A DNA stretch of 64,000 nucleotides from positions 1 through 64,000 of the forward strand of contig JAIVFJ010000118.1 in assembly GCA_025765615.1 (NCBI GenBank). Reading direction: 5' to 3'. The position numbers and the translations under genes are program-made. This document shows, piece after piece, positions 28,290-53,683 of this stretch (positions are counted from its first letter, which is position 1; each line of letters starts with the position of its first letter). A model generated the notes under the pieces. It worked only from the letters and a program-made list of their open reading frames with translations, was not told the DNA's origin and did not search any database. Source of the DNA: Zopfochytrium polystomum. Its lineage: Eukaryota > Chytridiomycota > Chytridiomycetes > Chytridiales > Chytridiaceae.

Positions 28290-28386
28290 AGGGTGGACAT
28301 GTCACGTACATTCAGAAAGAACGACATGTCACGTACATTCAGAAAGAACGACATGTCACACAACGTTCAGAAAGAACGACTTGTCA
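28290..28386. repeat. 27-bp tandem repeats with ATTCAGAAAGAAC
   Basis: Three head-to-tail units (27, 27 and 28 bp) start GACATGTCAC and end CAGAAAGAAC, followed by a partial fourth unit (GACTTGTCA). The reverse complement of the same element lies upstream of F-box gene 1 (22,600-22,740). The units are directly adjacent with no spacers. Confidence 0.85.
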
Positions 28387-28542
28387 GGAATTTGTGAACG
28401 TTGGATCGTTTCGCTCTTCGATCCAACAGATCACTGTATGCCAGCGCACTGTTCCATTTCGTTTGATTTAAAGGCCGCAACTCTTCGATTGGCTTAGGTG
28501 TTCTTTTGGGTCTAACCATTCAATCGATCTACTTACAGCGAT

Positions 28543-30029: not shown

Positions 30030-30108
30030 AACTGCTTCTTTACCAAATTGAAATTTGACGTTTTTACTTCTAGAACAAAGTTACATTTCAGTTTGATAAG
30101 AAATTGAC

Positions 30109-31585: not shown

Positions 31586-31759
31586 TTTTACTTCAAATGC
31601 GAAAAGAAAACTTCAACTAAATTTTCAAAGAAAGAAGTTTCACGAGGAGTCATCGTAATACAAATTCATTTTTCTTCGAAAAAATAAGAATATTATAAAA
31701 GGAATATTGCTCAAAGATGAACGCGAAGAAAGAAACAGGATTGAGAATGACGAGAGAAA

Positions 31760-32010
31760 GGAAAGTCTTGGCGAGACTTTCTTGGCGTGGAGAGAAAGAA
31801 GGTCACGTGACAGTGAAGAGAAGACAAAGAGAAGAGAAGAAAAGGTCTTGGCGAAGAAAAAAGTGAAATCGAGAAGGTGAGAAGGTCTTGGCGAAGAAAA
31901 AAGTGAAATCGAGGTGAAAAGCGAGGAAGAGAAAGAGAAAGGTCACGTGACGTGGAGGAAAAAGAGAAGAGAAGGTCTTGGCGGAGGAAAAAGTGAAAAT
32001 TGAGAGGACA
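31760..32010 (+). promoter_or_regulatory. tandem cassette promoters (TCTTGGCG boxes)
   Basis: It holds five TCTTGGCG boxes (near 31,766, 31,781, 31,848, 31,887 and 31,977), two GGTCACGTGAC palindromes (31,801 and 31,941) and A-rich runs. Two adjacent 36-39 bp units (31,845-31,920) are near-identical. The last box leads into the first array gene at 32,027. Confidence 0.6.
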
Positions 32011-32026
32011 AAGTCGAGAAGCAAGG

Positions 32027-32481
32027 ATGTGTGACTACGAGTACAAGCGAGGAGCGAAGAAAGGAACCGTGTGTGGAGTAAAGTCGAGAGAAGGAGAGAA
32101 GTGTGCGAAACACAGAGAGAAAGACAGAGAAAAGAGATTGCCGAGATTGCCAAATGAGATATTGAAATGATATTCGAGTACGTAGGAGAAGTGAAGATGA
32201 AAGGAAGTATAGATGAGAAGTTGAGAGTGGAGAGAGAGATGGGGATAAGAGTGGAGAGAGGAAGAGTGAAAGTGTCGAGAGCGGTGGAAAAGATGAAGAG
32301 AGAAGAGTATGAGTGGGAGAGAGAAGGGATACTGACAAGACAGATAGTGATAAAGAAGAGAATATTTCTGAAAGAAGAAAGAAGGAGAGTAGGAGAGAAG
32401 AATGAATGGAGATACGGGATGTGGAGGGAAAGAAGGGGGAAGGATAGTGGAGAATGGAAGATAGAGTGGAGAGAAGAGTGA
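32027..32481 (+). pseudogene. cassette gene 1: Cys/His module plus F-box-like protein, frameshifted
   Basis: Starts MCDYEYKRGAKKGTVCGVKS, then GEKCAKH (pattern C-x13-C, then C-x2-H), followed by LPRLPNEILK. A missing A near 32,164 creates a stop. The +2 frame then gives MIFEYVGEVKMKGSIDEKLR and a basic, charged tail to 32,481. Array siblings keep both parts in one frame. It is followed directly by a hairpin terminator. Confidence 0.65.
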
Positions 32482-32493
32482 CGAGGAGGAGAG

Positions 32494-32542
32494 AAAAAAA
32501 AGCTCTTAGCATTGCAGCCAGCAGTGCTAAGAGCTTTTTTTT
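32494..32542 (+). terminator. hairpin terminator 1
   Basis: Stem AAGCTCTTAGCATTGC pairs with GCAGTGCTAAGAGCTT around the loop AGCCA, followed by eight T. The arm sequence GCTCTTAG/CTAAGAGC differs from the other copies but pairing is kept. Confidence 0.8.
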
Positions 32543-32555
32543 ATGAAAGTGGAGA

Positions 32556-32725
32556 GAAGAGGTCACGTGACTTGAAGGTCTTGGCGTAGAAAAATTGAGA
32601 GCGAGAAGAAAGAGGAGGTCACGTGAAAAAGCAAGGAAGAAAAGAAGAGGTCTTGGCGAAGGGCACGTGACAGTGAAGGTCTTGGCGGAGAAGAAACTGA
32701 ATTTTTGTGAGACTTAGACGAGGAG
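32556..32725 (+). promoter_or_regulatory. orphan cassette promoters
   Basis: Three CACGTGA boxes (32,566, 32,621, 32,663) and three TCTTGGCG boxes lie here, the last followed by CTGAATTTTTGTGAGACTT. No ORF follows before the next promoter at 32,751, so a cassette gene seems to have been lost. Confidence 0.5.
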
Positions 32726-32750
32726 TGTGAAGAGAAGACAAAGAGAAAAG

Positions 32751-32810
32751 GTCACGTGACAGAGAAAGAGAAAAGTCTTGGCGGAGAAAAAACTGAATTG
32801 TGAGAGGACA
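32751..32810 (+). promoter_or_regulatory. promoter of RING-finger cassette gene
   Basis: GTCACGTGAC is at 32,751, then GTCTTGGCGGAGAAAAAAC and TGAATTGTGAGAGGACA, ending 17 bp before the ATG at 32,827. Confidence 0.6.
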
Positions 32811-32826
32811 TCTGAGGAAGCAAAAG

Positions 32827-33294
32827 ATGAAGTGCGAGTACGAGTACAAAAGAGGAAAGAAGAAGGGAACCGAGTGTGGAAGGAAGTGCTGGGAGAAGAG
32901 GTGTGGGATGCATGGAGGGAAAGAAGAGTGTTATGTGTGTTACGGGACGATAAAGATGAGAGAGGAAAACGTAAAGACGCATTGTTGTGGACACAGGAGT
33001 CACAAGAAGTGTTACAAAGAGTGGATGAAACATGGGGAGAGGTGTGGATATTGTGGGAGTGAGTGGAAGAAAGCAGAAGGAGTGGAAGAGAAAGTGTTGT
33101 ATGAACTAGTGGAGATGCTAGGAGAGAAAGCAGTGGAGATAGCCGAATATGTGGAGGACATAGCGAAAAGAACGAATCCAGCGATAAACGAAGGAGAACT
33201 GCAATTGATAAAAGGAGAGTTGAGAGAGTATTTTAAGAACAGACGATACAGAAAAAGAAAAGTATACGAGATAGTAGTAAGTGTGGTGGATTGA
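32827..33294 (+). CDS. cassette gene 2: Cys/His module fused to RING-H2 finger
   Basis: A 155-aa protein from MKCEYEYKRGKKKGTECG (chosen because every array gene begins at this module). The module (C, C, C-x2-H near residues 3-30) is followed by a RING-H2: CYVC, a 13-residue gap, CCGHRSHKKC, then CGYC (about residues 35-78). RING-H2 proteins are mostly E3 ubiquitin ligases that recruit an E2. The tail (VLYELVEMLGEKAVEIAEYV) is helical. Unlike its siblings it lacks the F-box-like part. A hairpin follows 17 bp after the stop. Confidence 0.78.
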   Translation: MKCEYEYKRGKKKGTECGRKCWEKRCGMHGGKEECYVCYGTIKMREENVKTHCCGHRSHKKCYKEWMKHGERCGYCGSEWKKAEGVEEKVLYELVEMLGEKAVEIAEYVEDIAKRTNPAINEGELQLIKGELREYFKNRRYRKRKVYEIVVSVVD

Positions 33295-33311
33295 GAAGAG
33301 AAAAGTAAGAG

Positions 33312-33354
33312 AAAGCCCTTAGCGCTGCAGCCAGCAGTGTTGAGGGCTTTTTTT
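33312..33354 (+). terminator. hairpin terminator 2
   Basis: AAAGCCCTTAGCGCTGC pairs with GCAGTGTTGAGGGCTTT around loop AGCCA, followed by a T-run. Confidence 0.8.
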
Positions 33355-33358
33355 ATGA

Positions 33359-33465
33359 AAGGTCACATGACATAGCAGTAGAAGAGAAAGTGAATTACGG
33401 TAGAGGAGAAATAGAGAAAGGTCTTGGCGGAGGAAAAAATTGAAAAATGAGAGGACCTTGAGCGG
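33359..33465 (+). promoter_or_regulatory. promoter of cassette gene 3
   Basis: GGTCACATGAC (a one-base variant of the CACGTG box), then GGTCTTGGCGGAGGAAAAAA, TTGAAAAATGAGAGGACCTT. Confidence 0.55.
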
Positions 33466-33473
33466 AAGAAAGG

Positions 33474-33829
33474 ATGTGTGACTACGAGTTAAAGAAAGGA
33501 GTGCGAAAAGGACAAGTGTGTGGAGTAAAGTCGCGTGATGGGAAGGAAAGGTGTGGGAGACACAGGGAGAAGAAAAAGGAGGAAAGGTGGAGATGGGAGA
33601 GTTGCCAATGGAGATAAAAATGATGGTGATGAGTTTTGTGAGGTGGAAAGAAGTGAGAGGGAGTGTAGATGAGAAACTGAGATTTGAGAAAGAGACAGGA
33701 ATGAGAATGAAAAGAGGAAAGGTGGAGGAGACAGAGAACGTAAAGAGATGTGTGAAGGAAAAAGGAATGGTATACAGATTGTTTGAAAAAGAAGAAGAGA
33801 CAGTGTTGGATATATTTGGATGGGGTTGA
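33474..33829 (+). pseudogene. cassette gene 3: Cys/His module plus F-box-like protein, frameshifted
   Basis: Starts MCDYELKKGVRKGQVCGVKS, RCGRH (zinc-type module), then shifts frame near 33,585. The second frame reads MGELPMEIKMMVMSFVRWKE, GSVDEKLRFEKETG and RGKVE, the family F-box-like part, and ends at 33,829. One indel separates it from an intact gene of about 118 aa. Confidence 0.65.
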
Positions 33830-33845
33830 ACAGGAGGAGAGAAAG

Positions 33846-33889
33846 AAAGCTCTTAGCGCTGCAGCCAGCAGTGTTAGGAGCTTTTTTTT
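33846..33889 (+). terminator. hairpin terminator 3
   Basis: AAAGCTCTTAGCGCTGC pairs with GCAGTGTTAGGAGCTTT, loop AGCCA, T-run of nine. Confidence 0.8.
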
Positions 33890-33899
33890 ATGAAGGAAA

Positions 33900-33945
33900 G
33901 AGGTCTTGGCGGAGGAAAAAGTGAATTTTGTGAGGACTTTGTAGA
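33900..33945 (+). promoter_or_regulatory. promoter of cassette gene 4
   Basis: AGGTCTTGGCGGAGGAAAAA then GTGAATTTTGTGAGGACTTT; no CACGTG box in front. Confidence 0.55.
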
Positions 33946-33953
33946 GAGCAAAG

Positions 33954-34389
33954 ATGTGTGACTACGAGTTCAAACGAGGAGCCAAGAAAGGAAACAGTGT
34001 GTGGAGTGAAGTCGCGTGACGGGAAGAAAAAGTGTAGTAAACACAGAAAGGGAGAGGAGAAGGTGAAGGAGAAGATAGTGATGAAGTTTCCAATGGAGAT
34101 AGTGGGGATGATAATGAGATATGTGGGAGAAGTGAAGTGGAGTATAGAAGAGAAGTTGAAGTGGGAAAGGGAGACGGGAATAAAACTGGAAAGGGGAAGA
34201 GTGGAGGTGAAAGAAGAAGTGAAGGAAAGTATAAGGTGGAAGAGTTGGTCGATGAGGAGAGAAGGGATGGCAGAAATATGGGAAGAAAGGGATGGAAAAA
34301 GGATAAATATGACAGTGAGGGGAATGAAGTGTATGAAACTGATAGAAGAGGTAGGAAGGAATTTGAGAGGAACATACATGGTAATTTGA
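33954..34389 (+). pseudogene. cassette gene 4: Cys/His module plus F-box-like protein, frameshifted
   Basis: Starts MCDYEFKRGAKKG, then an extra base near 33,990 shifts the frame into TVCGVKSRDGKKKCSKHRKG. The rest is open: MKFPMEIVGMIMRYVGEVKW, SIEEKLKWERETGI, and a basic tail. It is very similar to cassette gene 7 (36,310-36,915) through the first 90 residues, pointing to tandem duplication. Confidence 0.68.
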
Positions 34390-34393
34390 GAGA

Positions 34394-34427
34394 GAAAGCC
34401 CATCGCATTGCAGTGTTGTGAGCTTTG
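34394..34427 (+). terminator. decayed hairpin terminator 4
   Basis: AAAGCCCATCGCATTGCAGT then GTTGTGAGCTTT: one loop half is missing and there is no T-run. A damaged member of the hairpin family. Confidence 0.5.
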
Positions 34428-34433
34428 CCGAAC

Positions 34434-34490
34434 GAGGTCACGTGAAAAGTCTTGGCGGAGAAAAAACTGAATTTTTATCGGACGTATGAG
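34434..34490 (+). promoter_or_regulatory. promoter of cassette gene 5
   Basis: AGGTCACGTGA, AGTCTTGGCGGAGAAAAAAC, TGAATTTTTATCGGACGTAT. Confidence 0.6.
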
Positions 34491-34500
34491 AGGGCAAAGG

Positions 34501-34845
34501 ATGTGCGACTACGAGATACAGAAAGGAGAGCGGAAAGGACAAGTGTGTGGAGTAAAGTCGAGGGAAGGGAAAAAGTGTGGGAAACACAGAGACAAGAAAG
34601 TGTATGGAAGAATGCCAATGGAGATAGTAAGAATGATAATGAAGTATATAGAAGTGAAAGATGATGCAGCGAAAGTGATAAAATTGGAGAAACAACTGGG
34701 AATGGAGTTAAAAAGAGGAAAGGTGGAAGGAAAGGTGAGAGTGAGAAAGTGTGTGGAGAATAAAGTGATATTGTACAAAGAGTATGAGTTTAGGAATGTG
34801 GCGGTGGGAATGAGAAGTGTGATGGCAGGAAAGGTATGGTTTTAA
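34501..34845 (+). CDS. cassette gene 5: Cys/His module plus F-box-like protein (intact)
   Basis: A 114-aa protein read from MCDYEIQKGERKGQVCGVKS (34,501), the start shared by the family. The zinc-type module (KKCGKH) spans about residues 2-29. It is followed by MPMEIVRMIMKYIEVKDDAA, then KLEKQLGMELKRGKVEGKV, the F-box-like part, and a short carboxy-terminal strand region. It is one of the few uninterrupted genes in the array. Promoter boxes and a hairpin flank it closely. A plausible role is a substrate adaptor, but this is inference. Confidence 0.75.
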   Translation: MCDYEIQKGERKGQVCGVKSREGKKCGKHRDKKVYGRMPMEIVRMIMKYIEVKDDAAKVIKLEKQLGMELKRGKVEGKVRVRKCVENKVILYKEYEFRNVAVGMRSVMAGKVWF

Positions 34846-34865
34846 GTGAAGAAAAAAAGTAAGAG

Positions 34866-34909
34866 AAAGCCCATAGCGCTGCAGCCAGCAGTGTTGTGGG
34901 CTTTTTTTT
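34866..34909 (+). terminator. hairpin terminator 5
   Basis: AAAGCCCATAGCGCTGC pairs over 17 positions (with G-U pairs) to GCAGTGTTGTGGGCTTT, loop AGCCA, eight T. Confidence 0.82.
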
Positions 34910-34925
34910 ATGGCGGTTTTTAGGA

Positions 34926-34975
34926 CGAGGTCACTGTCTTGGCGGGGAAAAAATTGAATTTTGTGAGGACTTTGG
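34926..34975 (+). promoter_or_regulatory. promoter of cassette gene 6
   Basis: GAGGTCACTGTCTTGGCGGG: the CACGTG and TCTTGGCGG boxes are fused by a deletion. A-run and TGAATTTTGTGAGGACTTTG follow. Confidence 0.55.
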
Positions 34976-35021
34976 TGGAGAGCACAGAGACCAGCGAAAG
35001 AGAAAAAAGAACGAGAAAAAG

Positions 35022-35651
35022 ATGAACTGTGAATACAAGATTACGAAGGGACTTCACAAGGGACAAGAATGTGGAAAAAAGAACTGTAAAAAACATGAGA
35101 AAGGATGTGATCAGATATTGAAGACAGGAAAAAGGAAGGGACAGATGTGTGGGAGAAAGGGAAAAGAGAATGGGAAATGTGGGATTCACAAAAAGTGGGG
35201 GGTTCAGAAAAAGTATAGTGAAAGTGAAAGCGACACTGAAAATGAAAGTGAAAATGAAAGTGAAAATGAAATTGAAAATGAAAGAGGTAGGGGAAGTGGA
35301 AGTGAAATTGAAATTGATGAAAGGTTCTCGAGTCCAATAGGATGGATAGATCTGACGGAAGTGCCACTAGGGAAGATAATAAACCATTACCAGACGGTAC
35401 TTGATGATGATGATGATCCAGTGTGGAGATTGATGAAAGGGTTATCAGAGGAAGTATTAAAGAAGAAACTAGGAGATCCGGGAAAGGAGGTACTAGGATC
35501 AGAAAATGAGACGTATCAAGTGACATATGACAAAAAGACGGGAAAACACAAGTGGGAATACAGAGGAATAAATATATATGAAAATTCAAGGGTATATCCG
35601 GGAGCCATGACCAAAGAGGAAATATGGAGATGGCGATCGCGATACGAGTAA
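35022..35651 (+). CDS. cassette gene 6: double Cys/His module, acidic repeat, unique C-terminal domain
   Basis: A 209-aa protein from MNCEYKITKGLHKGQECGKK. It has two zinc-type modules in tandem (NCKKH; then CDQILKTGKRKGQMCGRKGK, KCGIH) in about residues 3-56. An acidic ESENESENE repeat covers about 65-90. The domain from FSSPIGWIDLTEVPLGKIIN to YPGAMTKEE (about 100-205) recurs almost unchanged in the gene at 37,123, which lacks the modules. No known family for that domain. Promoter boxes precede and a hairpin follows. Confidence 0.7.
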   Translation: MNCEYKITKGLHKGQECGKKNCKKHEKGCDQILKTGKRKGQMCGRKGKENGKCGIHKKWGVQKKYSESESDTENESENESENEIENERGRGSGSEIEIDERFSSPIGWIDLTEVPLGKIINHYQTVLDDDDDPVWRLMKGLSEEVLKKKLGDPGKEVLGSENETYQVTYDKKTGKHKWEYRGINIYENSRVYPGAMTKEEIWRWRSRYE

Positions 35652-35670
35652 GAAAGAGAGAATGTAAGAG

Positions 35671-35714
35671 AAAGCCCATAGCGCTGCAGCCAGCAGTGTT
35701 GTGGGCTTTTTTTT
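35671..35714 (+). terminator. hairpin terminator 6
   Basis: Same arms as terminator 5 (GCCCATAG/TTGTGGGC), loop AGCCA, eight T. Confidence 0.82.
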
Positions 35715-35730
35715 ATGGTGGTTATTAGAA

Positions 35731-35805
35731 CGAGGTCACGTGACTTTGGGTATGTCGGGGATGGGCGGGGGAAAAAGTGAATTTTGAGAGGACTTTGAGA
35801 GAGGA
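35731..35805 (+). promoter_or_regulatory. promoter of F-box-like gene at 35,814
   Basis: GAGGTCACGTGAC, then TGTCGGGGATGGGCG (35,753-35,767) in place of TCTTGGCGG, then GTGAATTTTGAGAGGACTTT. Confidence 0.6.
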
Positions 35806-35813
35806 AAAAGAGA

Positions 35814-36149
35814 ATGATACAGAGAATGCCAAATGAAATTGTGGACATGATATTTGAGTATATAAATCCAGGAGACATAAAAGGAAGCATTGATGAAATA
35901 ATAAAATTGGAAAAAGAACTAAACAGATATTTGGGAAGAAAGAAAGTAACGCCGATATTAAACATGAAGAAAAGGAAGGGGAAGAATATAAAAGTGAATG
36001 GAAAGATGTGTCGAATAACATTTACGATAAGGGGGAATGTATTATCAAGGTGGGATGGATCATTGGATCCGAGTTATACAGTGAAAAGAATGGAAATAGT
36101 GACAAGATATGATGGAGATGAATATGAACACAGTGCACATACATGGTAA
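35814..36149 (+). CDS. cassette gene: F-box-like protein without zinc module
   Basis: A 111-aa protein: MIQRMPNEIVDMIFEYINPG, DIKGSIDEIIKLEKELNRYL, then a strand-rich tail (MCRITFTIRGNVLSRW). It aligns in order with the protein at 3,862-4,185. It lacks the amino-terminal Cys/His module of its neighbours. AT-richer than other array genes, suggesting a separate origin. Promoter and hairpin are of the array type. Confidence 0.68.
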   Translation: MIQRMPNEIVDMIFEYINPGDIKGSIDEIIKLEKELNRYLGRKKVTPILNMKKRKGKNIKVNGKMCRITFTIRGNVLSRWDGSLDPSYTVKRMEIVTRYDGDEYEHSAHTW

Positions 36150-36166
36150 GGTTGTGTGTGTAAGAG

Positions 36167-36209
36167 AAAGCCCATAGCATTGCAGCCAGCAGTGTTGTGG
36201 GCTTTTTTT
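36167..36209 (+). terminator. hairpin terminator 7
   Basis: AAAGCCCATAGCATTGC pairs with GCAGTGTTGTGGGCTTT, loop AGCCA, T-run of seven. Confidence 0.8.
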
Positions 36210-36225
36210 AATGGCGGTTTTTAGG

Positions 36226-36300
36226 ACGAGGTCACGTGACAGTGTGTCAGGAATGGGCGCGGGGAGGAAAAACTGAATTTTGTGAGGGCTTTGTTGAAAA
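36226..36300 (+). promoter_or_regulatory. promoter of cassette gene 7
   Basis: GAGGTCACGTGAC, TGTCAGGAATGGGCG (36,244-36,258), AGGAAAAAC, TGAATTTTGTGAGGGCTTTG. Confidence 0.6.
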
Positions 36301-36309
36301 GCATCGGAA

Positions 36310-36915
36310 ATGTGTGACTACGAATACGTGAAAGGAGTCAAGAAAGGGACTGTATGTGGAGTAAAGTCGAGGGATGGAAAGGAAAAGTGTAGTAAACACA
36401 GAAAAGAAGGGAAGGGAGAGGAGAAGAAGGTGGTGAAGGAGATGAAGGTGATGAAGAAAGAGGAGATGGTGATGAAGTTTCCAATGGAGATAGTGGGGAT
36501 GATAATGAGATATGTGGGAGAAGTGAAAGGGAGTATAGATGAGAAGTTGAAGTGGGAAAGGGAGACGGGAATAAAACTGGAAAGGGGAAGAGTGGAGGTG
36601 AATGAAGAAGTGATGAAAAGGAGGGAAATGTGTGAAACATGGGAAAAAAAGGGAGGAATAATGATAAGTTTGACAGTGAAATGTGAGAAATGTAAGAGAA
36701 GTAAGAGATTGATGGTGGAGTGTCCAGAGTATAATAAAAGGATGGACGTGATAAGAATGGAAGGAGAGGAGGAGTATGAGAGGGAGTACAAATTGATGGC
36801 GTGGACCGGTTTGGGGTGGGGTCCAAAACGAGAGGAAGGAGATGAGGCGAATGAGTGGAAGAAGCGAGTGAGAGAGTGGCAAGACTGGTTCAGCGATACA
36901 TTTCTTTTTATCTAG
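36310..36915 (+). CDS. cassette gene 7: Cys/His module plus F-box-like protein (intact, long)
   Basis: A 201-aa protein starting MCDYEYVKGVKKGTVCGVKS, KCSKH. A Lys/Glu-rich linker leads to MKFPMEIVGMIMRYVGEVKG, SIDEKLKWERETGIKLERG. The second half adds a possible zinc pair (CEKCKRSKRLMVEC) and a Trp-rich tail (MAWTGLGWGP, WQDWFSD). It is the best reference for the family because no frameshift is seen. Function unknown; Skp1 binding through the F-box-like helix is a guess. Confidence 0.75.
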   Translation: MCDYEYVKGVKKGTVCGVKSRDGKEKCSKHRKEGKGEEKKVVKEMKVMKKEEMVMKFPMEIVGMIMRYVGEVKGSIDEKLKWERETGIKLERGRVEVNEEVMKRREMCETWEKKGGIMISLTVKCEKCKRSKRLMVECPEYNKRMDVIRMEGEEEYEREYKLMAWTGLGWGPKREEGDEANEWKKRVREWQDWFSDTFLFI

Positions 36916-36938
36916 GAAAAGAGCGAATGAGAGAATGG

Positions 36939-36982
36939 AAAGCCCATAGCGCTGCAGCCAGCAGTGTTGTGGGCTTTTTTTT
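36939..36982 (+). terminator. hairpin terminator 8
   Basis: Arms GCCCATAG/TTGTGGGC with the invariant GCTGCAGCCAGCAGTG centre and eight T. Confidence 0.82.
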
Positions 36983-36998
36983 ACGGCGGTTTTTAGGA

Positions 36999-37090
36999 CG
37001 AGGTCACGTGACTTTGGATGGTATGTCGGGAATGGGCGGTGGAAGAGTCTTGGCGGGGAAAAAATTGAATTTTTATCGGACTTAGGAGGA
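36999..37090 (+). promoter_or_regulatory. promoter of gene at 37,123 (both box types)
   Basis: GAGGTCACGTGAC, TGTCGGGAATGGGCG (37,024-37,038) and AGTCTTGGCGGGGAAAAAAT all occur before TGAATTTTTATCGGACTTA. It shows that the two GGCG boxes are separate elements. Confidence 0.62.
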
Positions 37091-37122
37091 AAGCACAGAG
37101 AGCAGCGAAAGAGAAAAGAAAG

Positions 37123-37509
37123 ATGAACAGCATTAAGAAGGGAAAGAACAAGGGCAAGGGACAGAGTGAAATTGAAATTGATGAAAGGTTCTCGAGTCCA
37201 ATAGGATGGGTAGATCCGACGGAAGTGCCACTAGGGAAGATAATAAACCATTACCAGACGGTACTTGATGATGATGATGATCCAGTGTGGAGATTGATGA
37301 AGGGGTTATCAGAGGAAGTATTAAAAAAGAAACTAGGAGATCCGGGAAAGGAGCCACTTGGATCGGAAAATGAGACGTATCAAGTGACATATGACAAAAA
37401 GACGGGAAAACACAAGTGGGAATACAGAGGAATATATATCTATGAAAATTCAAGGATATATCCAGGACCCATGACCAAAGAGGAAATATATTTAGGGAGG
37501 AAAGAGTGA
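37123..37509 (+). CDS. paralogue of cassette gene 6 lacking zinc modules
   Basis: A 128-aa protein. After MNSIKKGKNKGKGQ it repeats the domain of the protein at 35,022 (EIEIDERFSSPIGWVDPTEV to YPGPMTKEE) with few changes, so the duplication is recent. The zinc modules and most of the acidic repeat are absent. The next ORF starts right at its stop, with no hairpin between them, so the two may share a transcript. Confidence 0.68.
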   Translation: MNSIKKGKNKGKGQSEIEIDERFSSPIGWVDPTEVPLGKIINHYQTVLDDDDDPVWRLMKGLSEEVLKKKLGDPGKEPLGSENETYQVTYDKKTGKHKWEYRGIYIYENSRIYPGPMTKEEIYLGRKE

Positions 37510-37523
37510 AGAGACCAGAGAAG

Positions 37524-37927
37524 ATGGTGAAGATTATCTTGACCCCAGTGAATATGGTGAATCCATCAACAGAATATGGAAGAAAAGCGAGGGAAGATTA
37601 TAACAGAGAGATAAGAGAATTACAAGAAGGAGAAAGAGTATGTTGGGATGACACCCATTGGAACCTAGGAAAAGTTGGAGATTACTTTGGGTTTGTGATA
37701 AAAACTCAGAATCAGAATCAGAATATAATGGAAATATTTGAAGTAAAGAAATAAGAAGCTCTAATAGGAGGAGACAGGAGTGGGACATAGAACCACATCA
37801 AAACAGACAAGTACTAGTGTTGTCCAAAACAAACATGACAATAACATTCACACATTATAAACAAATGTATGGATACAGTGACGGTTGGTTTCTAAGGGGT
37901 ACAACCCATGGGAAATGGACTGAGTAA
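37524..37927 (+). pseudogene. unidentified small-domain gene, frameshifted
   Basis: Starts MVKIILTPVNMVNPSTEYGR, then CWDDTHWNLGKVGDYFGFVI and NIMEIFEVKK, with a stop at 37,754. In another frame the coding continues as QEWDIEPHQNRQVLVLSKTN, FTHYKQMYGYSDGWFLRGTT and ends at about 37,925. The order (GDYFGF, then IFEV, then NRxVLVLS, then GYxDxxFLRGT) looks like a small viral domain of the PUA/EVE sort, but I cannot confirm it. One indel near 37,755 breaks it. Terminator 9 follows. Confidence 0.45.
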
Positions 37928-37944
37928 GGAGGAAAATGTAAGAG

Positions 37945-37988
37945 AAAGCCCTAAGCACTGCAGCCAACAGTGTTTGGGGCTTTTTTTT
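37945..37988 (+). terminator. hairpin terminator 9
   Basis: AAAGCCCTAAGCACTGC pairs with ACAGTGTTTGGGGCTTT; loop AGCCA. The changes C-T-A-A / T-T-G-G keep pairing. Eight T follow. Confidence 0.8.
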
Positions 37989-38196: not shown

Positions 38197-39294
38197 ATGG
38201 ATGACATAAGTGAAGAACTTTTATTAAACAATATCGATAGTTATTATGACATGCATAAATGTTTCAAAGGGAAATTTGTATACACTTCCACCAAAAAAAG
38301 AACATCTTACACACATCAATGGTGGTACTACGACAATTCTGATGGTATGTGGAAAAAAGATGTCAATAAATTAAAAGTGACTATTTTCTTGAATAATATT
38401 TTTCCAACTGTTTATATCCATTTAAAAGACAAATACAATGATCGTCCTGAAATTGTTAAAAAAATAAATGACAGATTAAATGAACTAAAACCTCTTGTTA
38501 AACGAGATATTATAGGTAATGCACAAATAGCATGGTTCAAGGAGGATTTTGAAGAACGATTGGATTCAAACTCTGAGTTCATTCCTTTTAAAAATGGAAC
38601 ATATCATCTTAAAGAAAAATGTTTCAAACCTTTCAGTAAAGATGATTACTGTTCAAAAAGATTAAGTTACGATTATGATGAAAATATTAATACAACTAGA
38701 TTTGAAAAATTTTTAAAGGAAATTGTTCCTGACAGAAACATTCGTGAATACTTGAAAAAATCTATGAGTCATGCTCTCTACCATACTGGTCAAAGTATTG
38801 TTTATTTGAGTGGACCTGGTGGTAAGAAACTTGTAGATCTAATGATTAAAGCATTTGAATTCAGTTCATATGAACTACTAGGTGATGAAATCATTAAAGC
38901 TGATAGAAACTACCCTCGTCCTAACGATCACTTGTTTTATCTCAAAAAGAAGAAATTTGCGTACATGACAATGTCACCATATCATATGGCTAGTGGTACT
39001 ATTCAGAGATATTTGAACTTGATAAGTGATAAAATTATTCCTTTAACTCTTCCACGTAAAGGTGATGTAACTATTAAAGTGCATTCAAAAGTGTTTGTGT
39101 TATGTGATACTTTACCAGAATTATACTTTAATCGACGTGCAAAAGCTATACACACAAATGATTCTGAACTAGACTTAGATTCAGATTACTATATAAAAGC
39201 TTTAATGAAAATTATGATTCAATACTATCATAAGAATGTTAAAGAGCCTGAATCAGTCAAACGAGAAGCTCCATTTAATAGACCTCGAGTTTAA
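38197..39294 (+). CDS. SF3/D5-like helicase paralogue with degraded ATPase motifs
   Basis: A 365-aa protein. Its order fits the D5_N plus SF3 helicase region: QWWYYDNSDGMWKKD, FIPFKNGTYHLKEKCFKPFS, YLKKSMSHALYHTGQSIVYL, then the phosphate-loop position as SGPGGKKLVD (about residues 205-214) without GK(S/T), and KKFAYMTM at the Walker B position without acidic residues. The homologues at 39,779 and 46,716 keep GESGCGKS and GSGSNGKS. It therefore probably binds DNA or partners without hydrolysing ATP. It has no primase domain, and no small partner gene directly upstream. The frame is open throughout, which argues for selection. Confidence 0.68.
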   Translation: MDDISEELLLNNIDSYYDMHKCFKGKFVYTSTKKRTSYTHQWWYYDNSDGMWKKDVNKLKVTIFLNNIFPTVYIHLKDKYNDRPEIVKKINDRLNELKPLVKRDIIGNAQIAWFKEDFEERLDSNSEFIPFKNGTYHLKEKCFKPFSKDDYCSKRLSYDYDENINTTRFEKFLKEIVPDRNIREYLKKSMSHALYHTGQSIVYLSGPGGKKLVDLMIKAFEFSSYELLGDEIIKADRNYPRPNDHLFYLKKKKFAYMTMSPYHMASGTIQRYLNLISDKIIPLTLPRKGDVTIKVHSKVFVLCDTLPELYFNRRAKAIHTNDSELDLDSDYYIKALMKIMIQYYHKNVKEPESVKREAPFNRPRV

Positions 39295-39778: not shown

Positions 39779-42091
39779 ATGTACCAATGTCAAGAAGAAA
39801 AGTACATGACGAATCTAAAAGAAATAAGAGAACTAGCACACGAAAACGGTTGGATATATTATGGCATAGAAATTAAGCGGGATGAGAATGGAAAAAAAAC
39901 CCCTGTATCTCCACCAGGAAAATGGCAAGAATTGCAAGCATCAACTTACAACAATCAGAAAAACATAGCAATTTTGACTGGAAATAAAAGCAAAATCATT
40001 GTAGTGGATCTAGATAGAAAAGATGAAGCTTACACTGCAAAAAAGTGGTTTGAGGAAAACATAGGACCTTTGAATAAAGAAAAAACTCTTATAACCGAAA
40101 CAGTTTCAAAAGGGCATCACATATATTATGCATATGATGAAAGAATCAAACTCATAAACAATCATGACATTCATATAGACATTTTAACTGATAAACGTTG
40201 TTGTTATGAAGGAGAAGGTTACAAAATAATAAATAATGCACCATTAAGAGAACTTTCTGTTGAAGAAATTAATAAAATAATGAGTCTTGCACCAAATAAA
40301 AATAATAAAAGAGACACAGAGGCTGGAACACTTGTAAATGAAAGTGACGGTAATAGATTATACTTGGCTAGTGAAGAAGAAAATTATATAAAAGATCTGC
40401 TTGGAGAAAAGTTTGATATAGCTGAAGATGACATTGAAAAAATGTTTTTGGATGAAAATAAGAATATTATAATTATACCAACAAAAATCAAGAGATGCTT
40501 TTATTACAATAAATTAAATAAAGGAATATCAAAACCATATGATCACAACAGCCAACATCAGTACTTCACATTAACAAAATCACACTTGAGAAGAAAATGT
40601 CATGACAATTCCTGTGAAAAAGAGGAAATGGAATATAGGGAAATAAAATATGAAGAATTTTCATCAAGTGTTAAAAAGATTGTAGACAAGAAATGGAAAG
40701 AAGAAGAAAAAACGGAAGATCAAAAGAAAACAGTCTATCAAATGCTTACAAGCTATGTACAAGAACGTGCTCAAGCGGAACATTTAAGAAGGATTGAATC
40801 CACTGGAGTTGTTTACAAAAAGATGAGAGAATATGCATATGTACTGCATTATGAGAGTCCAGGAAAGTTTTTAAACGACATATTCATAGACATAGATCTA
40901 TGGAGAAGTCGTCCAGGAAACTACAAAGATTTGTGTGAATACATGATCAAATATTCTGACAATAAATTTCCATACTTGATACGAGACAACAAATGGTATG
41001 GATTCAAAAATGGAATATATAATGTTGATACATGTGAATTTGTGGAAATTATAGAAAATAGTGATGATGAAATAGAAAAATGTAAAAGATATTTAGGAAA
41101 TAAAGTAGTGAAGAAATATTTTGATGCAAACTTTGATCTAGACATGACCACAGAAAACTTGGACAAAATATTAAAATACCAATTTAGTGATGAAGTGATT
41201 GAATTCATATACGTCATGATTGGAAGGATGTTTGGAATAAAAGATGAATGGGATGTAATGTTATATTTATATGGAGAAAGTGGTTGTGGAAAAAGTGTGA
41301 TAATAAATGTAATAAGAGAGTTTTTTGACAATGTTGGTAACATTAATGAGTCATTTGAATCCACATTTGGATTGGGGTATCTAATGGATAAAGATGTAGT
41401 CCTTAGTGACGATTTACCAAAAAACATACACAAATTTGTGCCACAACAAACGTTTCAATCAATGATATCAGGAGGAGGAGGGTCTTGTGCTGTAAAAAAC
41501 AAAGATGCTGTAAATTACAAGAAATGGACAGTTCCAATGATGTTTGCAAGCAATTACATGATAAGTTATAATGACATGGGACAGATAAGTAGACGAATTA
41601 TAGTTGCACATTTTGAAAATAAAGTCAGAGATTCGGATTCAGATTCGAGATTGTTGAGTTTTATTAAAACGTGTGAGCTTGGCAGTATAATGCACAAGTC
41701 CACTATGCTATACAAGAAGTGGAGAGATAATATAAATGATGGAAAAAAAATATGGAGCAACCTTCCAGTGTACTTTTTAGAAAAACAAAGAGAGTTAATT
41801 GAGGAACAAAACCCATTCTATTCTTGGTTAGTTTGCAATTACAAAGTAGTAGAGGGAAATGTAATCAAAATGAGGGATTTGAAAGCTCAATATAAGATTC
41901 AAACAGGAAAGAAGGCTGGACAAAATATGAAAGGAAGTGTGACTGCTGCAAATAGTCAATATGAACATTTTAAAAAGTTTATCTGTAAATCATGTAGGAA
42001 AGACCATAAAAGTGGATGTTGTGATGAATATGACAGAAGAAATTTTACTTCAGAAGATGCTGTAAGAAACATTGGAATAATAACAGAGTAA
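39779..42091 (+). CDS. AEP primase-polymerase / SF3 helicase fusion
   Basis: A 770-aa protein. The amino-terminal prim-pol domain has IIVVDLDRK (metal-binding DxD, about residues 72-80), KGHHIYYAYDE (about 112-122) and IDILTDKR (about 130). The middle has Cys/His residues (HLRRKCHDNSCEKEE). The carboxy half is an SF3/D5-type helicase with Walker A YGESGCGKSVII (about 497-508), Walker B VVLSDDLPK (about 537-545) and the sensor-like FASNYMISYND. The tail has CKSCRKDHKSGCCDEYDRRN, a probable zinc site. Such fusions start replication in plasmids, viruses and integrated elements. It is paired with the small gene and followed by iteron region B. The frame is intact. Confidence 0.85.
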   Translation: MYQCQEEKYMTNLKEIRELAHENGWIYYGIEIKRDENGKKTPVSPPGKWQELQASTYNNQKNIAILTGNKSKIIVVDLDRKDEAYTAKKWFEENIGPLNKEKTLITETVSKGHHIYYAYDERIKLINNHDIHIDILTDKRCCYEGEGYKIINNAPLRELSVEEINKIMSLAPNKNNKRDTEAGTLVNESDGNRLYLASEEENYIKDLLGEKFDIAEDDIEKMFLDENKNIIIIPTKIKRCFYYNKLNKGISKPYDHNSQHQYFTLTKSHLRRKCHDNSCEKEEMEYREIKYEEFSSSVKKIVDKKWKEEEKTEDQKKTVYQMLTSYVQERAQAEHLRRIESTGVVYKKMREYAYVLHYESPGKFLNDIFIDIDLWRSRPGNYKDLCEYMIKYSDNKFPYLIRDNKWYGFKNGIYNVDTCEFVEIIENSDDEIEKCKRYLGNKVVKKYFDANFDLDMTTENLDKILKYQFSDEVIEFIYVMIGRMFGIKDEWDVMLYLYGESGCGKSVIINVIREFFDNVGNINESFESTFGLGYLMDKDVVLSDDLPKNIHKFVPQQTFQSMISGGGGSCAVKNKDAVNYKKWTVPMMFASNYMISYNDMGQISRRIIVAHFENKVRDSDSDSRLLSFIKTCELGSIMHKSTMLYKKWRDNINDGKKIWSNLPVYFLEKQRELIEEQNPFYSWLVCNYKVVEGNVIKMRDLKAQYKIQTGKKAGQNMKGSVTAANSQYEHFKKFICKSCRKDHKSGCCDEYDRRNFTSEDAVRNIGIITE

Positions 42092-43250: not shown

Positions 43251-44741
43251 TCATATGTATTGTGGTCTATAGAAACTCGAACCTTTAACTTTAAAATCAT
43301 TTAAATCTGTCAATGAAGGGGATTTTTCCATCTCAATGAATTTAAGATATTCCAATTTAGGATACGATTTCAACTTTTGTAATCGATTTCCTAAACAAAT
43401 CAAACAAGTAAGTTCAGGATATACTGGAAGGTTCTCTATGTTGTTATTTTGGCAATATAGGTCGAGTAATTTAGGAAACTCGGGTAATTCACATAGCTGA
43501 TTATCAGCACATTTAAGTTGCTCCAAAAGTGGATAAGATGGAATGTAAACTAAACTATTTCTTCTGCAGTCTAATTCTCGCAATTTAGGGAATTCTGGCA
43601 AAGATATCAGTTTATTATCTGTGCAAATTAATTCATCCAATTGTGGGTATGAGGGTAAATATGTCAATTGATTATTTGAACAAACAAGAAGAGTAAGATT
43701 AATGAACATGGGTAAAGTTTTGACTCTACAGTTTGTACAGTCAAGTGACTCAAGTGTCTGATAATCATAAATTTCTTCCAAAAACATATCAGTGCATTTC
43801 AAAGTTTTAAGATTCTTAAATTTAGGTAGTTTTGTTATACTGGTGTCTGAACAGTCCAACGTTTCCAGATTTGGATACTCCTTTATTTCTTTTATATCTA
43901 CATTATTTTTAATTATCAATTCTACTAAATCTGGATACCACTCTATTTTACTCAGCTTATTATCACTACAGATCAGCGTTTTTAGTTTGGGATATTTTGG
44001 AATTGTTTTCAATTCGTTTTCGCTGCACATTAATTCCATAAGTTCAGGTAGATCCTCAGGATTTGGTAGTTTTGTTTGTGTATTATTAGAACATGCCAAT
44101 TTTTCCAACATAGGTAAGTTTTCAAAGACAATTTCTTCATAATTGTATCCACAACTTAATTCTATCAATTTGGGGAAGTTTCTGATTGTTTTTATATTAT
44201 TTGCATTACAAGAAAGTGTCTTCAGATTTGGTAGGCTGGGCAGTTCCTTAATTTGATTGTCATCGCAATCTAATACACTCAAGAGAGGACTAGAATGTTC
44301 ATGAAAACATTCAATGTCATTAAATGGACATTCTATTTTGATTATATTTGGGAGTCTTGGTAATTTTTTTAAAGTTGTGTACCAACATTGAAAGAATGTA
44401 ACATTTGGAAGAACTGGAATGCTATCTAATTCTAATTTGTCAATATACTTTCTTCCTTCAAGTGTGATATTTTTCAAATAATAAGTTTTCATGTACAATT
44501 TGAAGACTTTTTCCAGATCTTTTTCTACTTTTTTTACACCATTGTAAACATAAATGAAATTATTCTTTTCTGTGTAATTAATTTCAAAAACAGAGATAAT
44601 ATAATTTAATATTTTTTTCCTATTTCTTTTTGATATATACCTTGCGCGTTTTGATATTGTTGAGACAACAGATAAACTAGTAATATCAAAATTGTCAACA
44701 CAATATTGCATAATTCTTTCTAATATTTCTTCAGTGTTCAT
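43251..44741 (-). CDS. leucine-rich repeat protein with F-box-like N terminus
   Basis: A 496-aa protein. Residues 1-60 (TEEILERIMQYCVDNFDITS, LSVVSTISKRARYISKRNRK) look like a degenerate F-box. From about residue 100 to 485 it is made of roughly 17 repeats of 20-23 residues with the pattern LxCxxNxLxxLPxxPxLxxL (for example LDCRRNSLVYIPSYPLLEQL). This is the short repeat type common in giant-virus and bacterial effector LRR proteins. LRRs mediate protein binding; with an F-box they could choose substrates for ubiquitination. The frame is intact. It is AT-rich and lies between two replicons. Confidence 0.78.
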   Translation of the reverse strand: MNTEEILERIMQYCVDNFDITSLSVVSTISKRARYISKRNRKKILNYIISVFEINYTEKNNFIYVYNGVKKVEKDLEKVFKLYMKTYYLKNITLEGRKYIDKLELDSIPVLPNVTFFQCWYTTLKKLPRLPNIIKIECPFNDIECFHEHSSPLLSVLDCDDNQIKELPSLPNLKTLSCNANNIKTIRNFPKLIELSCGYNYEEIVFENLPMLEKLACSNNTQTKLPNPEDLPELMELMCSENELKTIPKYPKLKTLICSDNKLSKIEWYPDLVELIIKNNVDIKEIKEYPNLETLDCSDTSITKLPKFKNLKTLKCTDMFLEEIYDYQTLESLDCTNCRVKTLPMFINLTLLVCSNNQLTYLPSYPQLDELICTDNKLISLPEFPKLRELDCRRNSLVYIPSYPLLEQLKCADNQLCELPEFPKLLDLYCQNNNIENLPVYPELTCLICLGNRLQKLKSYPKLEYLKFIEMEKSPSLTDLNDFKVKGSSFYRPQYI

Positions 44742-45058: not shown

Positions 45059-45074
45059 GTGGGTTAGGTACTTT

Positions 45075-45410: not shown

Positions 45411-46127
45411 ATGGATATCAAAGAGTTAACAATGATGTGTGTAAATTGTGGAACAAAGATGAATGAAAAAAGGGAGGAATGGTCAAAAGCATGTGAAAAC
45501 TGTTGTAGAAAAATAGTTAAGAGAGAAATGCGAGTAATTAAACTACTAAAAGAAGCAGGTTATAATTATGTGCATAATAAAGCAATAAGAGCAGCAGAAA
45601 AATATGTGTATGACAATGAAGGGAATTTGACAGGTGAAGTGCAACCAATGTCAAGCTTAAGAACGAACAGCAAACCAGATTTCCTAATAAAGGCCAAGTC
45701 ACATTTTGTAGTTCTTGAAGTGGACGAGTATCAACATTATGCACACACACAGTTATGTGAAATGATAAGGATGAATAATATAATATATGATCTAGGAAGT
45801 CCAGTAAGATTTATTAGATATAATCCAGATGCAGAAGTGGAAGAAAAAGAGAAAGAAGAATTGTTGATGAAAGTATTAAAAGAAGCAATGGAAGAAGAAA
45901 TGGAAAGTGTAATGGAAAGGATATATTTGTTTTATGGAGACCTATTTCAATATAAAAATTCAAAAAGGGAAAGGAGAGTGGTACAAAAAATGATAGGAGG
46001 AAAAGCATATGAATATGTAGATGGGAAAGATCTCAAAAGGGTGAAAGGAGAATGTTTAAGAACGTATCATAGATATGAAAGTCCAGAGAGAGAAGATTAC
46101 AAGTTTATAAAAATGGGAAGAAAATAA
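45411..46127 (+). CDS. PD-(D/E)XK-like endonuclease with zinc ribbon
   Basis: A 238-aa protein. A four-Cys ribbon (CVNCGTKM, ACENCCRK) spans about residues 10-36. The nuclease-like core is KPDFLIKAKSHFVVLEVDEY then QHYAH (about 88-112), i.e. a PD...E-V-D-x-x-QH arrangement as in the Vsr-like/PD-(D/E)XK group of large DNA viruses, followed by VRFIRYNPDAE (about 131-141). The tail is acidic and then basic, probably helical. It would cut DNA, perhaps for element mobilisation or repair. It is paired head to head with a small family gene, like the replication genes. Confidence 0.75.
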   Translation: MDIKELTMMCVNCGTKMNEKREEWSKACENCCRKIVKREMRVIKLLKEAGYNYVHNKAIRAAEKYVYDNEGNLTGEVQPMSSLRTNSKPDFLIKAKSHFVVLEVDEYQHYAHTQLCEMIRMNNIIYDLGSPVRFIRYNPDAEVEEKEKEELLMKVLKEAMEEEMESVMERIYLFYGDLFQYKNSKRERRVVQKMIGGKAYEYVDGKDLKRVKGECLRTYHRYESPEREDYKFIKMGRK

Positions 46128-46162: not shown

Positions 46163-46183
46163 TATATTTGGGACAAGGGGATT

Positions 46184-46623: not shown

Positions 46624-46715
46624 GTTACAATAATTCAAGAAGACTAATGTTTAAATTAGGGCGCGTTGAAAAATTGAAAATATATTCATTAGACATTTTA
46701 AACCAAAAAACTCTA
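46624..46715. promoter_or_regulatory. divergent promoter with GGCGCG box
   Basis: GGGCGCGTTGAAAAATTGAA (about 46,660) is followed by A/T-rich sequence to the ATG at 46,716. It matches ACGCGCGTTCAAAAATTG at 4,424-4,441. Confidence 0.5.
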
Positions 46716-49436
46716 ATGATTGAATTAGTAGAAAAAATGAACACAAAAAGAATTGAAGAAGTACAGAAATACAAAGGTCAAATTTTTAATAGTAAAGGAA
46801 TAGATATTACAGAAAGTATTCATGAAAACTTGAGAAAATGTAAAGCAAAAACAAATGTAAAATATTCATTTGGAAAAGAAAAAGATAAAAAGTCTGAAAG
46901 AAATAAAGATTATGGAAGATTATATGCAGACAAAGGCTATCAAAACATGTCAAAAAAAGTAAGGAATTACATAATGAATGGAATGTATATAGATGTTGAT
47001 ATAAAAAATTGTCAACCAGTACTGTTACATCAATTAATGAAGGAACAAATAGAAAAGCAAAGTGAACTTCTCAGGAATTATGTAGAGAATAGAGAAGTAT
47101 TATTGAAAAAGTATGGATTGGATAAAGAGGGGTTTCTTACCATTATATATGATGAAGAATGTTTCATTGAAAATGAGGACATACAAAAAATGCATAGATT
47201 AATATATGGAAAAGGAGGATTGGTAAGATCAATATTAAGTGATGGTGATGAAAAATATACTAAAATAATGTCAGATGTAAATAAAAATAAAGAAAAAAAT
47301 AGAAAAGGATCATTTTTAGCAAACGTCTTGCAAGATATTGAAAATCAAATATTGATGGTAATGTATAAAAAGTTCAAGGAAATGGATCTAGAAATAGGAA
47401 CATTAATGTTTGATGGACTAACAATTGAGAAGAATAGTGTAAAAGATAAAAACATGGATGAATTACTCTTTGAAGTAGAGAGAACAGTGAAAAAAGAAAC
47501 TGGTTATGAAATAAAATTAGTAGAAAAGCCAATGGAAGAGAAATGGACTCCAGAAACTGAATCTGAAGATACAGATAAAGTAAATGAGGAAATGAAGACT
47601 TATGTAAAAGAGACATTGGGTGACACAATAGATGAGATTCAAAAAATTACTAGGGATGATGGTGAAGTTGAATTAAGAGCCAGAATGACGGATGCTTCTT
47701 ACTTTTATGGATCATTCAAAAAGTGTGAGAATGGATGTGAGAGTCATCATGTTATGATGAGCAATGGATATCATGCAGAATGTGTAAAGTGTTGTATGAA
47801 GATTCCTGAAAGTACATCATTAATAATTCCAGCAAAGTTCAATATATTGAATCAATACTTTGGGATAAATATGTCTGTGACCATAAACAACTACAATATT
47901 GTGGGGTCAGATACTATAGAAAATGTGGAAATTGATGATAATTTGTTTGAAGATAAGAAGATAAGAAAGTATTTAAAAGAAATAATAAAAAGTCAAAAAA
48001 AATCATATATAGCAAGATTATTTCATCATATTTATCCAAATATAGTATACAGTGATAAAAAATGGTATGTATGGGAGTCAGAAACCAGAATATGGTGTTT
48101 GGATGATGAGGGTATTATATCAAGTTTCAATATTATGAATTTGGAGAAAATATTTGAAAAAGTGATAGATTATTACAAAACCAAAAGAGCTGAAGAAAAG
48201 TATGGAAAATTAATATCAAATGTAAATAACATTATAAAGAATTTAAATGAGCCAAGTTTGAAACGAGATGTTTTAACTGAAAGTAAATACTTTAAGAAAA
48301 ATAGGAATTTTGCAAACTTATTAAATAGCAATTTACATTATATTCCATTTACAAATGGATTGTATGATTTATCAAGTGCAACGTTCAGACAAATACAACC
48401 AGAAGACTATATTCAAGATACTACTGGTTATGATTATGTAAATGGGGTGACAGGAATAGAAGCAGAAGTGTGGAATGTGTTAAAACAAATATTACCAAAC
48501 GAGCGTGTAAGAGACTACATGTTACAACAAATGAGTTATGCATTAGATGGAAAGAAACCAAATACAATATTCATGATACTAACGGGGAGTGGTTCAAATG
48601 GAAAGAGTATATTATTAACATTGATGGAGATGACTGTAGGAATATTTGCGGATAAAGGTCAAGTTACTCTTATGACTCGAAAAAGAGGAGATCCAAACCA
48701 AGCGTCTCCTGAGCTAGTAAAATATAGAACTAAAAGATTTGTATTTCTAAGTGAACCAGAAGATGGTGAGAAATTAAACATAGGACTACTAAAAGAATTG
48801 ACAGGCGGTGAGTCTTTTGTTGGAAGAGAGTTATATTGTGGTTGTATAACATTTAAATTATATGCAAAATTTTACTTGGCGTGTAACACCATGCCTCAAA
48901 TTAAAGGAGAAGATGAAGCTTTATGGAGAAGAATTAGAGTTGTGAATTTTGAATCAAAATTTGTAGAAAATCCGTCAAATCCAAATGAATAGAAGATAAA
49001 TAAAAACTTGGAAAATGAAATGAAAGAAGATCTTAGATGGAGGCAGACATTTATGAATATATTGATAGATTATTATAACAAAGAAGAAATACCTGAACCA
49101 CCTGAAATGTTAGGTAGAACTGATGAATATAGAATTGAGAACAGTATGATGGAAAATTGGATTAAAGCGAATATAAAAGAATCTGAAACTGATTATATAG
49201 ACTCAAAAGAATTATGTGACTGGTATAAATTGGATAATGACCTTAAGGTATTTGGCAACCAAGAGAGAGGAAAATTACGTGCTGAAGTAACTAGAGTTAT
49301 CAACAAAGTGTTCAGAAAAAATATAACATGTGTTACTAAGAAAATAAATGGAAAAACAAAAAGTGTTTGGGAGGGGTTTAAAATGGATGATGGTGATGGT
49401 AGTAATAATGATATTGTCGTGGATGTGGGTATTTGA
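46716..49436 (+). CDS. TV-Pol-type polymerase / SF3 helicase, with one in-frame TAG
   Basis: About 760 codons from MIELVEKMNTKRIEEV, then TAG at 48,990-48,992, then about 147 more codons in the same frame to 49,436. The polymerase part has YGRLYADKGYQNM, IDVDIKNCQPVLL (palm motif A) and LMFDGLTIEKN (motif C region), as in TV-Pol proteins. A Cys/His ribbon is CENGCESHHV, ECVKC. The helicase has Walker A TGSGSNGKSILL (near nt 48,580-48,615), Walker B FVFLSEPED, and KFYLACNTMPQI. The post-stop part (RQTFMNILIDYYNKEEIPEP) matches the tail of the copy at 13,382. The helicase core lies before the TAG, so the truncated form may work. ATG 46,716 is chosen by comparison with 4,482. Confidence 0.82.
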
Positions 49437-53565: not shown

Positions 53566-53640
53566 ATAGTGTTGACAGATGAAGAGATTAGAATAAATCT
53601 TTGGAGAGGAACAGTAAGGAGTAAAGTGAATTGTAAGAAG

Positions 53641-53683
53641 AAGCCCTCAGCGCTGCAGCCAGCAGTGTTAAGGGCATTTTTTT
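53641..53683 (+). terminator. hairpin terminator 10 (outlying)
   Basis: AAGCCCTCAGCGCTGC pairs with GCAGTGTTAAGGGC; loop AGCCA, followed by seven T. The arm change CTCAG/TTAAG keeps pairing. Confidence 0.78.

Follow-up and report, generated by a model that had tools for sequence, protein, structure and literature searches.

Why does one hairpin, with a T-run after it, recur behind short open reading frames (ORFs) in the nuclear genome of the chytrid fungus Zopfochytrium polystomum? The ORFs in question form a block in the window analyzed here, the 64,000 nucleotides (nt) of contig C118:1–64000 of the 80-Mb assembly (C1, C118, and similar labels denote contigs of this genome), where they are arranged in cassettes with a promoter-like box, a short ORF, and the hairpin. 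The reading that we favor, at a probability of roughly 0.6, is that the block is an array of genes belonging to a nucleocytovirus-like element that is endogenised and present in many copies, and that its cassettes are transcription units with a sequence-conserved hairpin at the 3′ end. No description of these hairpins or of this element in Zopfochytrium was found in the literature searched, which was mostly without subscription papers, and an Rfam scan of the window gave no family at its cut-off.

The initial annotation of this DNA had counted ten copies of the hairpin, nine clustered and one near position 53,641, and a search located all ten (nine at 32,499–37,983 and one at 53,640–53,678), though one of the clustered nine is decayed. 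The 16-nt centre occurs nine times in the window at up to three mismatches, against 0.20 expected from shuffles. The nine whole copies have folding energies of −22.1 to −28.3 kcal/mol (z −4.6 to −6.8), and the decayed copy, whose centre is 7 nt short and which has no T-run, folds at −8.7 kcal/mol (z −1.8). Of the six arm pairs that had been quoted as keeping their pairing, GCCCTCAG/TTAAGGGC sets C opposite A in a 1 × 1 internal loop. Standard pairs make up 96.7% of the ten copies versus 92.3% in shuffles (0/500 reach this), and 8 cells are double-changed versus 3.8 (0/500); just three pairs show changes on both sides, a number that 110/500 shuffles reach.

Beyond the window, the core with its T-run was counted genome-wide at up to one mismatch and gave 125 sites (67 forward, 58 reverse), and the reversed pattern used as control gave none. 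Statements about contigs rest on the 100 of these sites among the matches listed, which lie on 24 contigs, 21 of them also with a D5_N match. The ten window copies served to build a covariance model, which yielded 81 sites (one strand each) in the window and 20 further genome regions, including 74 regular hairpins, of which 35 are distinct. An ORF of at least 60 amino acids ends within 300 nt upstream of 67/81 sites. Its stop lies less than 60 nt upstream at 49/81, compared with 386/4050 random positions (9.5%), so that in the sense RNA the hairpin comes right after the ORF, in agreement with the Mimivirus-type “hairpin rule”; in 42/81 the distance is 10–23 nt, measured to the start of the model (the stem starts 3 nt further on). 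At least six T follow the stem in 70 of the 74 regular hairpins and at least six A precede it in seven, and together with the folds this is the build of a Rho-independent-type terminator, a GC-rich hairpin with an immediate U-run. Some arrays on different contigs have near-equal hairpin spacing (C147:139251–143230 and C319:43200–45925; also C262 and C554) and are perhaps haplotypes or recent duplicates.

Both fold and sequence of the hairpin are conserved. It diverges less than synonymous sites, spacer, and flanks. In 108 homologous cassette pairs, which derive from 43 ORFs of at least 100 amino acids and are not independent, hairpin divergence is 5.8%, compared with 17% for the spacer from stop codon to hairpin, 23% for the next 60 nt, and a synonymous divergence (dS) of 0.255, i.e., about four times below synonymous sites. 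For unrelated ORFs (300 pairs sampled) it is 10.1%, and that of the next 60 nt 26.9%. Hairpin-limited gene conversion could mimic part of this low divergence. Among the 30 distinct hairpins in one register, loop and core are conserved in sequence (13/39 columns invariant), 95.7% of cells are paired versus 91.0% in column shuffles (0/500), 19 cells are double-changed versus 4.6 (0/500), and 5 pairs are changed on both sides versus 2.8 (reached by 6/500). Because the copies are related, evolution of independent columns was also simulated along a tree, and in 1000 runs pairing averaged 89.1% and never exceeded 94.1%, with the weakness that this null tree was inferred from the hairpins themselves. 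One-sided changes on the tree kept the pair 24 times and broke it 18 times. The 595 paired cells of the 35 distinct hairpins include 103 G:T and 11 A:C, five of the latter at one position of a long-armed type, and with G:T so far above A:C it is the sense RNA fold that appears to be under selection; the commonest form folds at −28.3 kcal/mol in sense and −17.2 kcal/mol in antisense. The long-armed type, with both arms lengthened together, makes up 6/74 regular sites, and one such hairpin folds at −29.1 kcal/mol (z −8.1).

The leaders of the cassettes are likewise recurrent. Within 330 nt after the hairpin, i.e., in the next leader, CACGTG occurs at 59/81 sites versus 2.4 expected, TGGCGG at 56/81 versus 3.2, and AANTGAATTT at 49/81 versus 1.1. 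The full box, GTCTTGGCGG..AAAAANTGAATTTT, has 65 matches in the genome when up to two mismatches are allowed (control 0), and its end in AAAAANTGAATTTT is like the Mimivirus AAAATTGA, which is present in 19/81 cassette leaders versus 7.0 expected. Outside the cassettes, four of nine element genes of the window likewise have AAAATTGA within 110 nt upstream. Among 20 non-redundant, low-GC, non-cassette genes it precedes three versus 0.46 by shuffling, and the relaxed form AAANTGAA lies within 100 nt upstream of 8/20 versus 1.5 by shuffling, with two downstream and one on the other strand. Such a placement of AAAATTGA shortly upstream of genes is that of early promoters in the Mimiviridae (Imitervirales). 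Poxvirus early genes, for their part, have a AAAANTGAAAANNA promoter and a TTTTTNT stop signal, and are alike in the AAAAANTGAA core with a variable N and in the downstream T-run, but their signal works without a hairpin. A pox-like use of TTTTTNT was considered and rejected, as the motif is not avoided within cassette ORFs (6 versus 4.1 by synonymous shuffling). The box also stands, identical in all six cases and not near the listed hairpins, at C12:502257, C94:239796, C147:146902, C160:34806, C319:53930, and C340:23895, where it perhaps precedes one further element gene.

The proposal of the initial annotation that the block is part of an integrated virus-like element is upheld by the D5-type and Prim-Pol genes that accompany it and by the virus-type promoter box. 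Of 29 hairpin groups, 16 have a D5_N match downstream on the same strand within 1.5 kb and two more within 3 kb, and 11 are without one so near. Profile searches of the genome gave 67 matches to D5_N, one to VLTF3, and one to a capsid fragment, an imbalance which suggests either that the element is separate and multi-copy or that this part of a virus was retained repeatedly. The VLTF3 gene looks intact and lies at C340:1080–1538 in low-GC DNA beside a phage tail-collar gene; the same contig has hairpin cassettes about 34 kb away. The capsid match covers 53 residues of a nucleocytovirus major capsid protein (C206:50226–50384, E 2.6e-20) and stands alone in host-like DNA, and a Capsid_N profile search gave no match, but its control was silent too. 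Distant metagenomic relatives were found for the Prim-Pol protein (3) and the D5 protein (12).

The cassette ORFs fall into families to which we gave the convenience names RING, ZK, FB, SSPIGW, and GDYFGF. Zinc-knuckle (ZK) and F-box (FB) likeness is a reading of motifs that Pfam supports in neither case among the members scanned. The 43 ORFs are purine-rich (A 40.5%, G 33.3%), and a median ratio of non-synonymous to synonymous divergence (dN/dS) of 0.36 over the 108 non-independent pairs indicates coding constraint during the divergence of the copies. The order FB1-RING-FB2-FB3-ZK4-SSPIGW-FB5-ZK1-SSPIGW is seen again, whole or in part, at several loci. A protein search with ZK1 (E ≤ 0.001, 201 candidates scored) returned 10 relatives, all named Zopfochytrium, and its predicted structure is unusable (mean predicted local distance difference test score 38). 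At 32028–32481 and 33473–33829 of the window a ZK-like start and an FB-like part lie in different frames, and at 34486 and 36310 in a single ORF; the frame-split cassettes may reflect decay or another mode of expression.

Table 1. Features of the window (contig C118) and, in the last two rows, polymerase-like genes on other contigs.
Feature	Position	Strand	Remark
Hairpin 1	32499..32537	+	T-run after stem
Hairpin 2	33312..33350	+	T-run after stem
Hairpin 3	33846..33884	+	T-run after stem
Hairpin 4	34395..34426	+	decayed; without 7 nt of centre and without T-run
Hairpin 5	34866..34904	+	commonest form; T-run after stem
Hairpin 6	35671..35709	+	T-run after stem
Hairpin 7	36167..36205	+	T-run after stem
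Hairpin 8	36939..36977	+	T-run after stem
Hairpin 9	37945..37983	+	T-run after stem
Hairpin 10	53640..53678	+	lone copy; no ORF of at least 60 amino acids ending within 300 nt upstream
Promoter-like box	32678..32705	+	2 mismatches
Promoter-like box	32774..32801	+	1 mismatch
Promoter-like box	33902..33929	+	1 mismatch
Promoter-like box	34448..34475	+	exact
Promoter-like box	34935..34962	+	1 mismatch
Promoter-like box	37046..37073	+	exact
Cassette ORF FB1	32167..32481	+	
Cassette ORF with RING finger	32827..33294	+	26.7 bits, just below Pfam cut-off 27.3
Cassette ORF FB2	33593..33829	+	
Cassette ORF FB3	34081..34389	+	
Cassette ORF ZK4	34486..34845	+	
Cassette ORF SSPIGW	35022..35651	+	
Cassette ORF FB5	35814..36149	+	
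Cassette ORF ZK1	36310..36915	+	
Cassette ORF SSPIGW, second copy	37123..37509	+	
Cassette ORF GDYFGF	37524..37754	+	also called EVE, a provisional name by likeness
D5_N gene	38197..39294	+	directly after array
Prim-Pol/helicase gene	39779..42091	+	AAAATTGA upstream
Leucine-rich-repeat gene	43251..44741	-	AAAATTGA upstream
Gene of unknown family	45411..46127	+	
Second D5_N gene	46647..48992	+	P4-family primase C-terminal
Rpb2-like places	C374:35520, C175:116457, C115:5198, C491:29957, C94:206140, C63:284202, C104:43466		
Rpb1-like places	C491:28027 and 22329, C7:344381, C175:110727, C374:43208, C64:61814, C160:108280, C158:146567		

Around the element, near-identical gag/pol copies of a long terminal repeat (LTR) retrotransposon flank it at 16334–20892 and 54868–59426, and a copia-like element lies at 7020–12089 (types by reading). 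A second low-GC viral piece at 2539–6696 has, besides a NADAR gene, D5-type genes in two overlapping frames. No terminal inverted repeats were found between 27,000–33,000 and 45,000–54,500, the sole strong match being the hairpin itself as a direct repeat.

If these parts work together, a cassette would be one transcription unit that opens with an early-type virus promoter box (GTCTTGGCGG..AAAAANTGAATTTT), continues with a short, uninterrupted, purine-rich ORF, and closes, usually 10–23 nt past the stop codon, with a 17-bp hairpin with the loop AGCCA and 6–10 T after it. A role of the hairpin as a 3′-end signal is likely on sequence grounds: it would act in the sense RNA, with the polymerase stopping at hairpin and U-run or, alternatively, with the hairpin being cut and tailed as in Mimivirus. 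The RNA 3′ ends would then form at the hairpin, presumably through a non-host polymerase, and it is possible that machinery foreign to the fungus once transcribed these genes.

The nearest parallel is found in the Mimiviridae. According to the passages on Mimivirus consulted (PMC4402537), its units start from AAAATTGA promoters, and the hairpins at their ends are cut by an RNase III-like enzyme and then tailed, and a passage on Bodo saltans virus (PMC5871332) gives the same pair of signals, a AAAATTGA promoter and hairpin ends. The array is alike in its AAAATTGA-type box upstream, the hairpin just downstream of the ORFs, and the D5-type replication genes. It differs in a hairpin that is near-constant in sequence, GC-rich, followed by 6–10 T, and, as far as read, limited to one gene-family array, which makes it unusual; in the Mimivirus passages the hairpins are not conserved in nucleotide sequence (PMC4402537), unlike the 10.1% divergence between unrelated ORFs and the 13/39 invariant columns found here. 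A T-run goes unmentioned in the passages of both papers (PMC4402537, PMC5871332). The bacterial Rho-independent terminators mentioned in the former (PMC4402537) are unlike the present case of one homologous hairpin family in a eukaryotic nuclear genome. For fungi, the part of PMC10640383 consulted describes in Rhizophagus irregularis a single insertion of 1.5 Mb, related to Asfarviridae and containing RNA polymerase and PolB, which is alike in being nucleocytovirus-derived DNA, with VLTF3, in an early-diverging fungus, and unlike the many dispersed copies rich in D5 genes seen here; its main text does not contain the word hairpin.

Several results weigh against the virus-like transcription unit. 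Double changes on one branch of the tree number only 3 versus 0.74 simulated, a value that 33/1000 runs reach, and one-sided changes off Watson-Crick pairing went 12 times to G:T and 6 times to A:C, a weak asymmetry if in the expected direction. The covariation that the initial annotation expected in an enlarged set of copies is thereby present as pairing above the tree null (0/1000) and thin as double changes, and its conclusion that paired changes reveal a selected RNA fold stands on that pairing, the G:T excess, and the low divergence, while the independence of the changes was overstated. At 14/81 sites no ORF of 60 amino acids lies within 300 nt, the D5 and Prim-Pol genes of the window are without such a hairpin, and the public gene models P0003, P0004, and P0005 span neighboring cassettes across the hairpin region, so that the annotation does not treat cassettes as separate units. 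Capsid and VLTF3 are single matches, far below the D5_N count, which leaves the tie to a complete virus indirect. Gene-based scans confirmed no relatives in IMG/VR viral contigs, where the core with its T-run also had 0 matches. Searches of the genome for Rpb1 and Rpb2 domains identified no viral RNA polymerase, and RNase III domain (PF14622) matches occur only on C1, C615, and C30, none of them among the contigs listed with hairpins.

The claim that a viral polymerase ended the transcripts is not borne out by the polymerase searches, which gave apparent host genes and a diverged family without such hairpins in the three pieces examined, nor by the hairpin-free D5 and Prim-Pol genes. By reading of frames, the Rpb1 matches on C51, C36, and C49 are RNA polymerase II (Pol II), III, and I. 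A further match on C26 (99292–100659) is Pol II Rpb1-like, with the catalytic NADFDGDEMN stretch of C51 replaced, and is probably a diverged or decayed host paralogue. Separate from these is a family of strongly diverged genes, with seven Rpb2-like and eight Rpb1-like places that are open over hundreds of codons and share several contigs (Table 1). It looks like another virus-like element. As a source of the element’s own polymerase it was set aside, not being linked to the cassettes in view of the three pieces profiled, which have 46–52% GC and no hairpin.

Among other explanations, the one least improbable is a host-used 3′ element, which we still consider unlikely: Pol II would transcribe the cassettes, a host protein would bind the hairpin like the histone stem-loop or a host RNase III would cut it in the manner of Rnt1, and the T-run would be incidental. 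The arrays do lie in host contigs beside LTR elements, the host RNase III domains exist, loop and core are conserved in sequence as for a protein-bound stem-loop, and the CACGTG of the leaders could be a host factor site, but the listed sites go with cassettes and D5-bearing contigs rather than with host genes, and the promoter box is virus-like and common to other element genes. Less probable, and disfavored by us, is a merely duplicated palindrome, whose pairing would stem from recent descent, gene conversion, or DNA palindrome correction without a selected RNA function. It would fit the many identical copies in a plainly duplicated array and the few independent double changes; it fits poorly with hairpin divergence of 5.8% next to a dS of 0.255 and, between unrelated ORFs, of 10.1% next to 26.9% in the following 60 nt, with pairing above the null of the hairpin-built tree, or with G:T above A:C and the weaker antisense fold. 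Very improbable, finally, is an attC-like site for recombination and spreading of cassettes, with termination secondary. Hairpin and leader are common to unrelated ORFs and 26 different neighbor pairs occur among 58 junctions, but gene order is largely preserved, the sequence after the hairpin tracks neither the upstream nor the downstream gene (0.603 versus 0.605 identity, 48 junctions), and T-run, stop spacing, and G:T excess would play no role in such a site.

Going beyond the array of an endogenised nucleocytovirus-like element, we regard as tentative and rather doubtful a larger picture, in which a eukaryotic virus lineage punctuates part of its genes with an intrinsic terminator of conserved sequence, a hairpin plus U-run recognised by its own polymerase or by that of a helper element (the diverged Rpb2/Rpb1-like pair being a candidate), and a fungal giant virus has the cassette element as its multi-copy satellite. 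As the part of PMC10640383 consulted states that no double-stranded DNA virus infecting fungi is known, an endogenous element whose transcription signals are still visible makes it possible to infer how the genes of such a virus were read. In a nuclear genome, a hairpin of conserved sequence with a U-run would be an unusual 3′ signal, and the hairpin family, with at least 125 copies, can serve as a marker in the search for the virus and its relatives.

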